Shown here: positions 8,666 to 18,041 of the stretch, one piece after another
Numbering within the stretch: position 1 is the stretch's first letter
Layout: each line of letters begins with the position of its first letter
NCBI RefSeq assembly: GCF_000714435.1
Contig: NZ_JJMW01000021.1
Location: 1-64,000, forward strand
Direction of reading: 5' to 3'
DNA from: Exiguobacterium alkaliphilum 12/1
GTDB lineage: Bacteria > Bacillota > Bacilli > Exiguobacteriales > Exiguobacteriaceae
Length of the DNA stretch: 64,000 bases
Made by a program: the position numbers and the translations under genes
Notes under the pieces: model-generated
The model's database searches: none
Told to the model about the DNA's origin: nothing
Seen by the model: the letters and a program-made list of their open reading frames with translations, nothing else

Positions 8666-10310
<1,645 letters not shown>

Positions 10311-10330
10311 GTCTGTTCTTAATAGTTGAA

Positions 10331-10366
10331 GGGAGAAGCTTGAAATATAAAGCTTCTCCCTTTTTT
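10331..10366 (+). terminator. Terminator of groES-groL
   Basis: GGGAGAAGCTT / AAGCTTCTCCC perfect stem with an eight-base loop, then six T. It marks the border of the AT-rich insert that follows. Confidence 0.9.
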
Positions 10367-10536
10367 GTGTTGTTTTTTATTCACAAGTTTTTTAAGTTAT
10401 AATATGTATATTATTATAAAATCACTTCTTTATTAACCAATTATTTATCATAATAAGAAATTAAAGTTATATAATAGTATTGTAATGTACTGTAATTAAA
10501 ATTGAGAAAGTAAATTATCATTTAGGAGAATTTGGT

Positions 10537-11463
10537 ATGAAGAATATTTTCATAATTACAAACAGTATTGATTTGACAGTAGATTATCTAATCAATAAAT
10601 ACAGTAGTCATGAAATCAATTTTTTTAGATTTAATACGGACTATTTTCAAGACTATAAAATTATTATTACTGCAGAAGGTACAATTATAGAGTACAAAGA
10701 TCAATCTTCCCGCATCAATTTATCTAAGTGTGGCTCGTTGTACTATAGAAAAATATCTATGCCTTCTTTAAGTGAGTATGCACCTCGTTATATACCTTTA
10801 ATGCATAGAGAAATGCTTACTGTAATAGAAGGTATTGCAGAAACCACAGGAAAATATGCTATTACACGTCCTTCGATTTTAAGAAAAGCAGATAATAAAA
10901 TTGTACAAATGAAACTGGCTGGTGAATTAGGATTCAGGCTACCTCGTTCGTTAATTACTAATTCAAATATATCTGCAATGTCATTTTGTAGCGACGATCA
11001 AACAATAGTTAAGCCTATTTCTTTTGGCAAAATTATTGGAGAGGACACGATTGGATTTATTCAGACGAATCTAGTAGATAGAGAAACTTCGTTCTGCGAT
11101 TTAGACTATTCCCCTGCATATTTTCAATCGTATATTAGTAAAGACTACGAAGTTAGATTAACTATTGTCGGGGATAAACTATTTGGTGTAAGAATAGATT
11201 CTACAGACAAGGTTGATTGGAGAAAAGAAAGTTCAATACTACAATATAGTACTTTACGAGTACCAGCTGATATTAGTGATAAATGTATAAAAATGATGAA
11301 GCTTTTGAAACTAAATTTTGCGGCGTTCGATTTCATTGTCCACGAAGGTGAGTATATCTTTCTCGAGTTGAATGCAAATGGACAATGGCTATGGTTAGAA
11401 GAAGAATTGAATTTAAAAATTTCTGACGCCTTAATAGATAATTTGTTGGGTAAAAAAACATGA
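10537..11463 (+). CDS. ATP-grasp ligase of the graspetide (omega-ester peptide) synthetase type
   Basis: A 308-residue MvdD/MdnC-like ATP-grasp enzyme. It should activate Asp/Glu side chains of the precursor as acyl phosphates and join them to Thr/Ser hydroxyls (ester macrocycles). The N-terminal pre-ATP-grasp domain contains the typical LYYRKIS; TIVKPISFG is the first ATP-binding lysine; DYEVRLTIVGDKLFGVRID is the central strand pair with arginine; the metal-binding end is FLELNANGQWLWLE, highly characteristic of this family. SD TTAGGAG precedes ATG 10537. It overlaps the next gene by 4 bases. The DNA is far more AT-rich than groL before it, which points to horizontal transfer. Confidence 0.88.
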   Translation: MKNIFIITNSIDLTVDYLINKYSSHEINFFRFNTDYFQDYKIIITAEGTIIEYKDQSSRINLSKCGSLYYRKISMPSLSEYAPRYIPLMHREMLTVIEGIAETTGKYAITRPSILRKADNKIVQMKLAGELGFRLPRSLITNSNISAMSFCSDDQTIVKPISFGKIIGEDTIGFIQTNLVDRETSFCDLDYSPAYFQSYISKDYEVRLTIVGDKLFGVRIDSTDKVDWRKESSILQYSTLRVPADISDKCIKMMKLLKLNFAAFDFIVHEGEYIFLELNANGQWLWLEEELNLKISDALIDNLLGKKT

Positions 11464-12512
11464 AAAAATTACAGTATAGTTTATTTAAAATTTTGTCTTT
11501 TAGCCCTGTTATTAGAATCACGGACGACTCAAAATTTAACAAAATAACTAAAGAACCTAAAAAAATTCGATATTCATTATTGAGTTTTAATCTAGGAACT
11601 AAAAGTTTTTATTTATTCACCTATACCGATAAGGAAGGGTTTAAATTTTTATATATTCTTGATCTTTATGAGGTACAAAAATACCATGAAATCATAGAAA
11701 AAAATGGGGATGAGTACGATGAATATTTAAGAGAATTGTATTTAAAGTCGCCTGAGAGGCGAATAGTTGAAAAGGAATTCATATTATTCAAAATCACAGA
11801 AGAAGTAAACATAAAAAACAAGACATTTAATAAGTTTTTAGCCTATATTGCTATAATTGCTTTTATTCTTCCTTTATATTCACCAAAGATAACCGAATTG
11901 TCCTCATACTTGGAATCTTATAAACTATTTTTTACAATTGGTATATTCTATTTATTTGTAAATATAATTTGTTTAAGTTATTCCTATATTAAAATAAAAG
12001 GATATAATCGTACCTTGCTAAGTAGCTTACGTAAAAACGAAAATCCAGGAATTTTACTAGTTGCATTACTTTTTTACGAATGGAAAAACACAGTTAATGA
12101 ATCCGTTATGGGTATAAGTATTATAAAAAATATTGAAAAATATATGTTTATGTTAATTATCCTTAGTGGGGTCATTATAATTTCGTCTAACATTGATACT
12201 TGGAAAATGAGTAAGGACCCAAAAAATACTATTATCGAGGAATCTGCTGTGGAATCGGCATTCTTTAATCTAAAATCTGAACCAAATATAAATCTCTTTT
12301 TAAAAAGAAATGAAGAGCAAGTTGAGAGGATAAACAATGCGTTATTATCCGAAGAATACAAAACGCTTCTTATGATTTCAGATGAAAGTAGTAAAATCAT
12401 TAATGAATATAAAAAGCTACTTGATTTTTACAAAAGTCAAAAAGTACGTATAATTAAAATTAAGAATGATGAACTATCTGAAAATATAGAAATCATATTG
12501 TTGAAGGAGTGA
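11460..12512 (+). CDS. Membrane protein of unknown function in the graspetide cluster
   Basis: A 350-residue protein that matches no family I recognise. The soluble N-terminal part (1-125, rich in Tyr/Phe/Lys) is followed by two membrane helices (about 126-143 and 155-178), a loop with ENPGILLVALLFYEWK, a third helix (about 228-247) and a C-terminal cytoplasmic or extracytoplasmic domain of 100 residues with helical, charged character. It lacks ABC, peptidase or MFS motifs. Its start overlaps the ligase stop (ATGA), and the precursor gene follows after 9 bases. It could export, process or confer immunity to the modified peptide; none of these is shown by the sequence. Confidence 0.7.
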   Translation: MKKLQYSLFKILSFSPVIRITDDSKFNKITKEPKKIRYSLLSFNLGTKSFYLFTYTDKEGFKFLYILDLYEVQKYHEIIEKNGDEYDEYLRELYLKSPERRIVEKEFILFKITEEVNIKNKTFNKFLAYIAIIAFILPLYSPKITELSSYLESYKLFFTIGIFYLFVNIICLSYSYIKIKGYNRTLLSSLRKNENPGILLVALLFYEWKNTVNESVMGISIIKNIEKYMFMLIILSGVIIISSNIDTWKMSKDPKNTIIEESAVESAFFNLKSEPNINLFLKRNEEQVERINNALLSEEYKTLLMISDESSKIINEYKKLLDFYKSQKVRIIKIKNDELSENIEIILLKE

Positions 12513-12521
12513 ATAATTCTT

Positions 12522-12959
12522 ATGAAATCGCCTTATATTGCAGCCTATATTGAGGAGTCAGTAATACAAAAATCCACTCACTTATTTTATGACAGTAAAA
12601 CACAAATTAATTATCTTGATAAAAACTTGAACATCAAGGCTATTACTTTTAGAGGTCCTGATACAACAATTGTGACAGAGACTGTTGAAAATTCGGATGT
12701 TAATTATATGGGACCTGAAACTACAAGAATTACAAAAACAAATGAAGCTAGTGATGTCGAATCTTTGACTTTGGGCCCCGAAACAACTCTAGAAACTAAC
12801 ACGGTTGAAAACTCAGATTTCGATGTCTTATTATTTGGGCCTCAAACGACTAGAAGAACTTTTGAAATTGAGATAGATGACGAATCGAATATACAATTGT
12901 TTTACGGACCTGATACAACCATTGTAACGAGAACACTTGAAAATAATGACACTCACTAA
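12522..12959 (+). CDS. Graspetide precursor with five TxxTxxxExxD core repeats (thuringinin-like)
   Basis: A 145-residue precursor with a leader of about 44 residues (containing HLFYDSKTQINYLDKNL) and five cores starting at residues 45, 64, 85, 106 and 129. Each core begins GP[DEQ]TT and fits TxxTxxxExxD, for example GPDTTIVTETVENSD. The spacers (VNYM, VESLTL, FDVLLF, ESNIQLFY) are variable and hydrophobic. The two Thr, Glu and Asp positions are invariant across all five cores, as expected if they become ester donors and acceptors. This is the consensus described for group 2 (thuringinin-like) graspetides. The gene sits last in the cluster; precursors more often precede the ligase. Confidence 0.85.
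   Translation: MKSPYIAAYIEESVIQKSTHLFYDSKTQINYLDKNLNIKAITFRGPDTTIVTETVENSDVNYMGPETTRITKTNEASDVESLTLGPETTLETNTVENSDFDVLLFGPQTTRRTFEIEIDDESNIQLFYGPDTTIVTRTLENNDTH
12654..12950 (+). repeat. Five tandem core-peptide repeats within the precursor gene
   Basis: Core units begin at nucleotides 12654, 12711, 12774, 12837 and 12906, a spacing of 57, 63, 63 and 69 bases. Protein conservation (GPxTTxxTxxxExxD) exceeds the DNA conservation between units, which indicates selection on the ring-forming residues and not recent duplication. Confidence 0.85.
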
Positions 12960-13217
12960 AGAGAAATAAATAAGACTAAATTTAAAATAGATGTCTTTTC
13001 CAAACAAATCTAAGACGAAAACCTAACGGAAGAAACTAGAGACAAACTCAATGATCGGATTGAGAGAATGGTGGATAAGTCATTTCAAAAAGATTCGGAG
13101 TTCAAGAGATGGATGGGTGCATCGATTTTGGCCAGGGTCATTGGTGCCGCATTGGCATTAGCTAAAAATCCAGAGGCGAGAAAAACACTGATTAATTTGC
13201 TGACGAAGAAGAGTTGA
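12960..13217 (+). pseudogene. Decayed small gene after the graspetide precursor
   Basis: No open gene, but one frame reads INKTKFKIDVFSKQI, a TAA at 13011, then DENLTEETRDKLNDRIERM and onward to a TGA at 13215. The second part looks like a real protein: an amphipathic helix, then WMGASILARVIGAALALAKN as a hydrophobic helix, then a basic end. No start codon with an SD is seen before the TAA; the first ATG after it (13069) would give 49 residues. It is either a broken gene or a remnant at the insert border. Base composition rises back toward host values along it. Confidence 0.4.
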
Positions 13218-13260
13218 ATGTAGCAAATAGGATAGTTGTACTAACTGTTTAAAAATAGCA

Positions 13261-13289
13261 GGAGCGACAATTCAATTCGTCGCTCCTTT
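13261..13289. terminator. Shared terminator at the right border of the AT-rich insert
   Basis: GGAGCGAC / GTCGCTCC perfect stem with a ten-base loop, followed by TTTCTT on the plus strand. It also lies directly after the minus-strand ABC permease gene. Confidence 0.65.
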
Positions 13290-13294
13290 CTTAT

Positions 13295-14002
13295 TTAATC
13301 CGTCTGTTTTCGGTTATACATCACAACACTTCCAACGAACACAACAAGCGCCCAGGAAGACAAAATCACGAGCTCCAACCATGTAGTACCGAGTCCAGCA
13401 CCGGCCTCGATTTGATGCGCGAGGTCGATCAAGACGATGTTCGGCAAATACTCGAGTAAACCGATGATAGAGAAACGGTCCTCGTATACCAATAGCATCG
13501 GCGAGAATGAGAAGAAGAAAAACGCTGGCATGACGATGAGTGAAGCTTCCATGACCGTCTTTGTAATCAGTCCGAGAATCGTCCCAATCCCGATATAAAA
13601 GAACGTCGAGACGATGAGTGCGAGTGAGATGACGAGCAGGTTTGCAGGGCTGTATCCCATGATAAAGGCGCACGCTGCAATCAAAACGAGTGTCGTTACG
13701 AACGTGAGCGCACTTTTCCCGAGCAAGATGTCGAGCGTGCTCGCTGGCGACAACATCAGTCCACGGAGCGTGTTCTTTTCTTTCTCTTCGGCAATCAAAG
13801 CACACTGGACGAACGTCGCGACGAGGCTGAACGTGATGTTGATGACAAAGTATGTCACGTCGATACCTCCGCCGCCGAGCTGTGAATAGAAGACGGCGAA
13901 GAACAGCGGCATGATCAACGTCGAGGAGACGAATAAGTTCCGCGACAAGTCTTTGTAGTCTTTCTGGAAAATAGCGAGTGCCCGTTTCATTGAAAATGTC
14001 AT
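13295..14002 (-). CDS. ABC-2 type exporter permease
   Basis: A 235-residue permease with six membrane helices of the ABC-2/NatB type: an N-terminal amphipathic part KRALAIFQKDYKDLSRN before helix 1, and a long cytoplasmic loop with EEKEKNTLRGLMLSPAS between helices 2 and 3, typical of drug and antibiotic exporters. It starts inside the ATPase stop codon (ATGA) with GGGGAGG upstream. With the ATPase it should export a small molecule, lipid or peptide. The substrate is unknown. Confidence 0.85.
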   Translation of the reverse strand: MTFSMKRALAIFQKDYKDLSRNLFVSSTLIMPLFFAVFYSQLGGGGIDVTYFVINITFSLVATFVQCALIAEEKEKNTLRGLMLSPASTLDILLGKSALTFVTTLVLIAACAFIMGYSPANLLVISLALIVSTFFYIGIGTILGLITKTVMEASLIVMPAFFFFSFSPMLLVYEDRFSIIGLLEYLPNIVLIDLAHQIEAGAGLGTTWLELVILSSWALVVFVGSVVMYNRKQTD

Positions 14003-15964: not shown

Positions 15965-16080
15965 CGAATCCCTCCCTTTTTAGTGGGATTATACCATTGA
16001 TTCGTAGAAGACTTGAGTAACGAATTGGAATAAGATTATGCTAAACTGGAGATAATTTGAAATTAGATAAGGGTGTGTCG

Positions 16081-17736
16081 GTGAAGATGATTGAGGTCAT
16101 TCCGTTAGAATTTGATAAAACGAGTATAGATGAGATTGATCGGACAGCCGATTATTTGAACTATCCGGTGATTTATATTTTGAACGGACAGAAGGAAGCG
16201 TATATCGGGGAGACGGTACACTTTCAAAAACGGATGAAACAACATCTGAAGCTGAAACAAGCAGATCGGAAGAATGTGGACCAAATCAATCTCGTGAAGC
16301 ATGAGACGTTCAATCGATCGGCGACGTTCCATCTTGAGACGAAGTTGATTAACTACTTTTTAGGCGACGAGAAGTACACTTTACAAAACAAAAGCAAGAC
16401 GGCAAGCGACTTCACACACAATTATTACAATAAATCGTTCTATGATAATGAACTGTTTCCTGAGCTATGGGGTGTGCTACATAAGGAAGGGCTCGTCAAA
16501 AACGACCTGCACGCCATCGAGAACAAAGACATCTTTAAATTGTCACCGTTCAAAGAGTTATCCGTTGAACAGATGGGCTTGAAAGAGCGTGTACTCGAGT
16601 TCTGTGAGAAACGGATTATGGAGTCGAAGCCCGATGACACGTATGGAGACTTGTACGTCATTGAAGGAGAGGCCGGTGTCGGCAAGAGTGTCGTCCTCAG
16701 TTCTATCTTCAATACCATTCAAGCGCGGACGAACGAGGCGGGTTCGAATCTGCATCAGACGGAGAACTACCTGGTCGTCAATCACGAGGAGATGCTGAAG
16801 ACGTATAAAGGGATTGCCAAACAAGTCAAACACTTGAAGGCTGTCAACTTCGTCAAACCGACGCCGCTCCTGAACAAGTTAAAAGATAAGAAGGTTGATA
16901 TCATCTTGGTCGACGAGGCGCATCTCCTGTTGACGAAGTCGGATGCGTACAACAATTTCCGGGCGGAGAATCATCTCGAGGAGTTGATGAAACGTGCGAA
17001 GATTGTGATTGTCATCTTCGATCAACATCAAGTATTAAAAATGAAAAGTCGATGGAATCAGGGATTGCTCGAATCATTCAAACAGAAGGCGAAGGTCGCA
17101 CAGACGTATCAGCTGACAAACCAGTTCCGGATGCAGGCAGGTAAGGATGTCATCGATTGGATTGATGCCTTTAAAACCAAACAAATCAAAACGTTTCCGC
17201 AATCGAGTGAGTATGAGTTACGAATCTTTGAGACGTTAGAAGAGATGCACCAAGTGATTATGAAACAAGACAAGCTGCATGGATTGAGCCGTGTTGTCTC
17301 AACATTTGATTATATTCATAAGAAAGACGGCGAAACGTACTACGTCTATGAATCGAACGGGAACTATAAGTTGCCGTGGAATACGACGGGCGGTAAGACG
17401 ACGTGGGCCGAGAAGTCAGAGACAATTGCCGAGGCCGGGTCAATCTATACAATTCAAGGCTTTGATTTGAATTACGTTGGCGTCGTGTTAGGTCCTTCGG
17501 TGACGTACGATGAGACGAAGGATTGCTTGGTGATCGACACAAATCTTTATAAAGATACGGGTGCGTATGCAGGAATTGACGGTGTCAAAGATGTCGAGTT
17601 AGCGAAAGAACAGATCGTATTGAACTCCATCAATGTGTTGATGAAACGGGGCGTCCGAGGACTTTATTTGTATGCGAGCAATCAAGCGTTGCGAGATGAG
17701 CTGTTACACATTCAAAGAGAGAAGGTACAGACATGA
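16081..17736 (+). CDS. GIY-YIG nuclease / DUF2075 P-loop ATPase fusion
   Basis: A 551-residue two-domain protein. The N-terminal GIY-YIG nuclease is seen in VIYILNGQKEAYIGETVHF and KRMKQHL (residues 30-60). From about 180 it is a DUF2075 helicase-like ATPase: Walker A EGEAGVGKSVV, Walker B ILVDEAHLLL (DEAH), a later NQFRMQ motif, and IYTIQGFDLNYVGVVLG like superfamily 1 motif V. It likely acts on DNA. It overlaps a MazG-like gene by 4 bases. Nuclease plus helicase plus nucleotide hydrolase in an accessory block suggests phage defence; that is inference. GTG 16081 has AAGGG upstream. Confidence 0.82.
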   Translation: MKMIEVIPLEFDKTSIDEIDRTADYLNYPVIYILNGQKEAYIGETVHFQKRMKQHLKLKQADRKNVDQINLVKHETFNRSATFHLETKLINYFLGDEKYTLQNKSKTASDFTHNYYNKSFYDNELFPELWGVLHKEGLVKNDLHAIENKDIFKLSPFKELSVEQMGLKERVLEFCEKRIMESKPDDTYGDLYVIEGEAGVGKSVVLSSIFNTIQARTNEAGSNLHQTENYLVVNHEEMLKTYKGIAKQVKHLKAVNFVKPTPLLNKLKDKKVDIILVDEAHLLLTKSDAYNNFRAENHLEELMKRAKIVIVIFDQHQVLKMKSRWNQGLLESFKQKAKVAQTYQLTNQFRMQAGKDVIDWIDAFKTKQIKTFPQSSEYELRIFETLEEMHQVIMKQDKLHGLSRVVSTFDYIHKKDGETYYVYESNGNYKLPWNTTGGKTTWAEKSETIAEAGSIYTIQGFDLNYVGVVLGPSVTYDETKDCLVIDTNLYKDTGAYAGIDGVKDVELAKEQIVLNSINVLMKRGVRGLYLYASNQALRDELLHIQREKVQT

Positions 17737-18041
17737 ACGAAATACAACGACTGATGGACAAAGTGATTGAATTCCGTGACGAGCGCGATTGGGCGTTCCA
17801 CCATAACCCGAAAGACTTGGCGTTATCGTTATCACTCGAGGCGAGTGAACTGCTGGAGTTGTTCCAATGGGTGTCGAGCGAAGAAGCGCTCGAGACGAAA
17901 CAAGTCGAGATGAAAGAAGAACTCGCGGATGTCCTCATTTACGCGCTCACGTTCGCCCATGCGGCAGGGATCGATGTGTCTCAGGCGATTGAAGAGAAGC
18001 TCCAGAAGAATGCGGTGAAGTATCCGAGTCCGAACGGCTAA
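17733..18041 (+). CDS. MazG-like nucleotide pyrophosphohydrolase
   Basis: A 102-residue all-alpha NTP pyrophosphohydrolase (MazG/RS21-C6 type). It hydrolyses nucleoside triphosphates to monophosphates plus pyrophosphate. The Mg-binding pattern EASELLELF...EEALETK...EELADVLIYAL (ExxE then ExxD) is complete, and the length suits the single-domain, dCTPase-like form. Translation is coupled to the GIY-YIG/DUF2075 gene (ATGA). The constant pairing suggests it conditions the nucleotide pool for, or is controlled by, the helicase-nuclease. Confidence 0.88.
   Translation: MNEIQRLMDKVIEFRDERDWAFHHNPKDLALSLSLEASELLELFQWVSSEEALETKQVEMKEELADVLIYALTFAHAAGIDVSQAIEEKLQKNAVKYPSPNG

Follow-up and report, generated by a model that had tools for sequence, protein, structure and literature searches.

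A conserved three-helix membrane protein encoded beside thuringinin-like and related graspetide ligases

We examined a 64,000-nucleotide stretch of Exiguobacterium alkaliphilum 12/1 (contig NZ_JJMW01000021.1, positions 1 to 64,000; hereafter the window) for the identity of a membrane protein encoded in a graspetide operon between the gene of an ATP-grasp ligase and that of a repeat precursor. The protein, 350 amino acids long and encoded by an ATG-initiated open reading frame (ORF) on the forward strand at 11460-12512, is a conserved, as yet unnamed membrane partner of graspetide ligases, both thuringinin-like ones and their relatives, and had been noticed before in outline. In Makarova et al. 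2022 (PMC8939145), cluster 18 (198 occurrences) is an uncharacterized membrane protein found specifically in thuringinin loci; because these loci are devoid of known transporters, the authors proposed that it transports the peptide. An earlier note on this DNA had held that a dedicated exporter, maturation helper or immunity protein would each be new for this peptide class; in view of the 2022 report this was overstated. By its description, cluster 18 resembles our protein in sharing a directon with a thuringinin-type ATP-grasp ligase and no known transporter. In contrast to cluster 18, the present family extends past thuringinin-type loci and includes long and short forms.

Recurrence beside graspetide ligases

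Searches with the single protein found no homologue among genome contigs, plasmids, phages or 60 related genomes. The family proved too divergent for the direct approach, and only a route starting from the ligase worked, in which an alignment of three ligases led to the 80 best ligase loci of the genome contig collection. A profile of 22 members (A4) detected a homologue of the membrane protein in 66 of these 80 loci, a count that is not blind since the same loci supplied 21 of the 22 profile rows. The homologue nearly always lay directly downstream of the ligase, and the ends of the two genes usually overlapped, by 1-29 bp. Profile iteration raised the number to 70, including one copy upstream of its ligase (L093); a further profile, A5, comprises 50 rows. 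Among all ORFs of these loci, there were no extra matches besides L093 and one fusion protein described below, which argues against a profile that would catch any membrane protein. The loci with a homologue belong to Bacillota, Vibrionaceae, Bacteroidota, Alphaproteobacteria, Nitrospirae and Chloroflexi. Those nearest to the window (in Paenibacillus, Photobacterium, Aliivibrio, Marinomonas, Shewanella, Clostridiaceae, Lachnospiraceae, Brenneria and Sulfurospirillum) share the order of ligase, three-helix protein of about 280-375 residues, and precursor with Thr/Glu/Asp repeats. Long forms of about 350 residues possess an N-terminal beta meander and mostly also a C-terminal alpha/beta domain, whereas short forms of about 200-290 residues, found in Bacteroidota, Proteobacteria, Chloroflexi and Nitrospirae, correspond roughly to the helical core alone.

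In Chitinophaga rupis (L081), a single frame of 534 amino acids encodes the whole ligase followed by the three-helix protein. This fusion supports, but does not prove, contact between the two proteins, because one indel could create it where the frames overlap and no second fusion was found. At another locus (L107:5933-6778), the profile missed a membrane ORF that immediately follows the ligase and scores like proteins of the PycTM family considered below; this ORF is perhaps a very divergent member.

Across 21 source genomes, A4 produced exactly one match per genome, always the operon copy. We also searched for the membrane protein while blind to the ligase, in about 1,140 genomes in all. In 295 genomes from the family of genome G121 there were two strong matches, both in a ligase-membrane protein-precursor arrangement. 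The 296 genomes of the Photobacterium family yielded three known and two new copies, both new ones in the order precursor, ligase, membrane protein, plus one false positive; 299 genomes from the family of the Lachnospiraceae locus yielded the known copy and one false positive. Finally, A5 found two strong matches in 247 Bacteroidia genomes, the new one (L234) again in the order precursor, ligase, membrane protein. The false positives were weak matches, an MtgA-like protein (G836) and one resembling a CBS-domain transporter (G1039). No strong-scoring homologue without a ligase was thus encountered in these genomes. Wide occurrence apart from any ligase or precursor, which the earlier note had named as the observation that would speak against its view, was therefore not seen, and the membership of the protein in the graspetide cluster is well supported by its homologues adjoining ligases.

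The membrane protein, its operon and its setting

Hydropathy placed three helices near residues 126-144 (TM1, 11835-11891), 156-174 (TM2, 11925-11981) and 229-247 (TM3, 12144-12200), within long helices of the AlphaFold2 model, so that the three-helix membrane protein described from the letters alone was confirmed. In the 50 members aligned, an E..R....E.K motif stands immediately ahead of TM1 (K conserved in 98%, R in 90%), and an N....N.K signature stands about ten residues ahead of TM3, which itself opens with a basic pair. These conserved charged and Asn residues lie where TM1 and TM3 are predicted to meet the cytoplasm. In the window protein the lysine is retained (K125), while the E and R ahead of it are not. 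The topology is probably N-in and C-out, consistent with Lys and Arg being denser ahead of TM1 (0.22) and in the loop between TM2 and TM3 (0.16) than in the loop between TM1 and TM2 (0.10).

AlphaFold2 modelled the long form with a predicted local distance difference test score (pLDDT) of 77 and a predicted template modelling score (pTM) of 0.57, and a short form, an extended helical bundle, with values of 92 and 0.82. In the long form, the beta meander (residues 36-68, 11565-11663; pLDDT about 90) is predicted to be cytoplasmic, and the C-terminal alpha/beta domain (residues 261-350, 12240-12509) is predicted, at low confidence (pLDDT 59-77), to lie outside the membrane. For neither model did Foldseek return a match at E 0.001 or better. 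The solved fold closest to the C-terminal domain, itself a low-confidence part of the model, was CagT (Z 9.3, 3.1 A over 81 residues), followed by OmpA-like folds (OmpA/SiiA, Z 6-7). Likeness of the short-form model to NINJ1 (Z 11.0) and to FAT domains was set aside, and we claim no family from these fold matches because such Z values are expected of helical bundles. Colicin E1, retrieved by a sequence search of the PDB, was at chance level (E 0.14).

The protein matched nothing in Pfam at the cut-off and nothing in NCBIfam, and PADLOC and PHROGs gave no usable match. With only three helices and no family match, it has neither the Walker A and signature motifs of an ATP-binding cassette (ABC) exporter nor the 12 helices of a major facilitator superfamily (MFS) exporter, and an ABC signature was not found in the window operon. 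A motif scan likewise detected an ABC-exporter-like ORF in only 2 of the 66 loci, and none in the other 64. The view of the earlier note that the protein is neither an ABC nor an MFS transporter nor a peptidase is thus well supported; the profile search that it suggested led to no Pfam or NCBIfam family, and the recurrence for which it asked was borne out by the ligase loci.

The upstream gene (10537-11463, forward strand) encodes a 308-residue ATP-grasp graspetide ligase of the MvdC/MvdD family. It matches PF21068, the MvdD pre-ATP-grasp domain, with 28.4 bits against a cut-off of 27, and TIGR04187 with E 6.3e-55, yet under the curated cut-off; the solved graspetide ligases CdnC (7mgv) and AMdnB (7m4s) align with it nearly end to end. 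Its stop codon TGA (11461-11463) and the ATG of the membrane-protein gene at 11460 share the letters ATGA, which gives the overlap of four bases that had been reported, and the nine-base gap to the precursor (12513-12521) could be read from the sequence as well.

The precursor (12522-12959, forward strand; 145 residues) combines a leader, MKSPYIAAY, which contains a P-h-h motif (PYIAAY), with five core repeats, all on the same strand: TIVTETVENSD (12666-12698), TRITKTNEASD (12723-12755), TLETNTVENSD (12786-12818), TRRTFEIEIDD (12849-12881) and TIVTRTLENND (12918-12950). Five occurrences of T..T...E..D compare with at most two when the core was shuffled 20,000 times, and the motif is absent from every other ORF of the window. 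A single ligase, several Thr/Glu/Asp core repeats and the P-h-h leader liken the system to thuringinin and other repeat graspetides (groups 3-6 of Lee et al., in the form in which PMC8939145 cites them). Unlike the relatives, four of the five repeats are without the last Asp of TxxTxxxExxDxD, which is kept in one. The gene cluster has the ligase and the precursor of a thuringinin-like graspetide cluster, and its product would carry ester crosslinks.

The G+C content of the operon is 26-34%, against 49% across the window, and no homologue of the membrane protein was found among the 60 related genomes. The operon occupies the interval following groEL (10313-13295), which is variable in relatives (loci L214-L224). 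In genomes G012 and G010, other genes amounting to about 0.5-0.75 kb separate groEL from the same ABC permease: a YdeI-like ORF in G012 and small membrane ORFs in G010. G006 carries a pair resembling AbiEi/AbiEii. Because no homologue was found in the 60 relatives and the interval is variable, the operon is most simply regarded as a horizontally acquired insertion.

Three further observations concern the surroundings. The groEL gene (8669-10310) lies in two overlapping frames split near 9,500, whereas it is intact, encoding about 544-546 amino acids, in 11 relatives; as the gene is essential, the split probably reflects an indel that arose in sequencing or assembly. A 49-residue ORF (13068-13217), flanked by the precursor and ABC permease genes, has no family match in Pfam or NCBIfam. 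Farther downstream (16057-18041) lies the gene of a 559-residue protein like GIY-YIG plus helicase, with a weak PADLOC match to PDC-S14 near residues 17-117, followed by a MazG-like ORF of 102 residues.

Possible roles of the membrane partner

We tentatively favour, at somewhat less than even confidence, the reading that the protein is a dedicated inner-membrane partner of the thuringinin-like ligase, which works with this enzyme and either anchors the crosslinked peptide or exports it. The membrane protein would contact the ligase directly at the inner leaflet, as the one natural fusion suggests, and the precursor would thereby be crosslinked at the membrane. The membrane protein would then anchor the crosslinked peptide or pass it out, and so might fill the place of an ABC/C39 exporter, which these loci lack. 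Several points weigh against this reading. An exporter with three helices and neither an ATPase nor a known transporter fold would be unusual; the core resembles a pore-forming effector, PycTM, rather than a transporter; and the single fusion may reflect a sequencing indel, since both frames normally overlap. A membrane scaffold or assembly factor that serves the ligase alone and takes no part in moving the peptide is an unlikely alternative to which the gene overlap and the same fusion would equally apply. Partner-dependent graspetide synthetases do exist (PMC13097080), and a title in the reference list of PMC8939145 provides a precedent in a membrane protein scaffold for microviridin, but a single ATP-grasp enzyme was reported to be sufficient for all thuringinin linkages (PMC8939145). 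Strict co-inheritance, with one membrane gene per operon, would also suit an immunity protein shielding the producer from its own graspetide; the overlap and fusion with the ligase, however, point toward biosynthesis, and we regard immunity as unlikely.

A different kind of role, doubtful in our judgement but well worth weighing, is that of a membrane effector in a conflict system or an anti-phage system. The protein would then be a pore former like PycTM, checked or triggered by the crosslinked repeat peptide, for instance via a protease that the peptide senses. PycTM, the Pycsar effector (PF18967), is known to disrupt membranes through pore formation (PMC11224242), and our family resembles it in a charged KA motif ahead of TM1, a two-helix hairpin, a cytoplasmic stretch and a third helix. 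It differs in that it has no Pfam-level match, no cyclase was seen as a neighbour, and its partner is a peptide ligase. In the 247 Bacteroidia genomes, the first A5 matches after the operon copies were two HD-PycTM proteins (E 8e-7 and 8e-6), although an unrelated membrane protein (L241) is likewise among the weak matches. Aligned by hhalign with Flavobacterium PycTM proteins, the family reached a probability of 61% over 148 columns spanning the three helices, against 1% for a reversed control, and single PycTM proteins scored 27.6 on average compared with 13.9 for 61 other membrane ORFs, above nearly all of them; the best-scoring of the 61 was the ORF directly downstream of the L107 ligase. 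On the other hand, PF18967 gave no match above its gathering score among 22 and 50 members scanned, and the hhalign probability fell to 2% when the PycTM alignment was widened at the cost of its quality. Because the wider alignment lost the signal, PycTM kinship remains a lead.

Among the operons nearest to that of the window, several adjoin anti-phage systems. Hachiman HamA and Cas8/5f-Cas7f adjoin the operon in L042, and other operons have as neighbours PglZ (L043), a retron reverse transcriptase (L041), type IV restriction enzymes (L040), Gabija GajA and GajB (L034), or a ThsB-like TIR protein and a caspase (L033). Defence neighbours accompanied 7 of 16 operons as opposed to 1 of 12 control regions of 10 kb, an enrichment that is not significant in this sample (p 0.09), and genomic islands would equally explain them. 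The effector role is nonetheless a serious rival to anchoring or export, with independent but weak support. In its most specific version, the ligase, the three-helix protein and the repeat peptide would act together as a stand-alone conflict system, with a PycTM-like membrane pore under the control of the ester-crosslinked peptide as protease bait or inhibitor; we consider such peptide-gated abortive infection unlikely.

Two of these loci have an arrangement of their own. In L033 (3680-6980), the graspetide operon lies on the same strand as, and directly downstream of, the genes for the ThsB-like TIR protein and the caspase-domain protein, which suggests one combined unit. In L042 (1975-10867), the operon is flanked by HamA on one side and by a fused Cas8/5f together with Cas7f on the other. 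Such a Cas8/5f fusion with Cas7f is found in CRISPR-associated transposons, and the operon may be transposon cargo.

For repeat graspetides of this type, to our knowledge, neither an exit route from the cell nor a biological role is known. The profile, the signature and the fusion extend the 2022 observation, made on thuringinin loci, to the majority of ligases in this branch. Furthermore, the presence across many phyla of one conserved membrane partner, perhaps related to a pore-forming defence effector, makes the question of export and role of the repeat graspetides directly testable.
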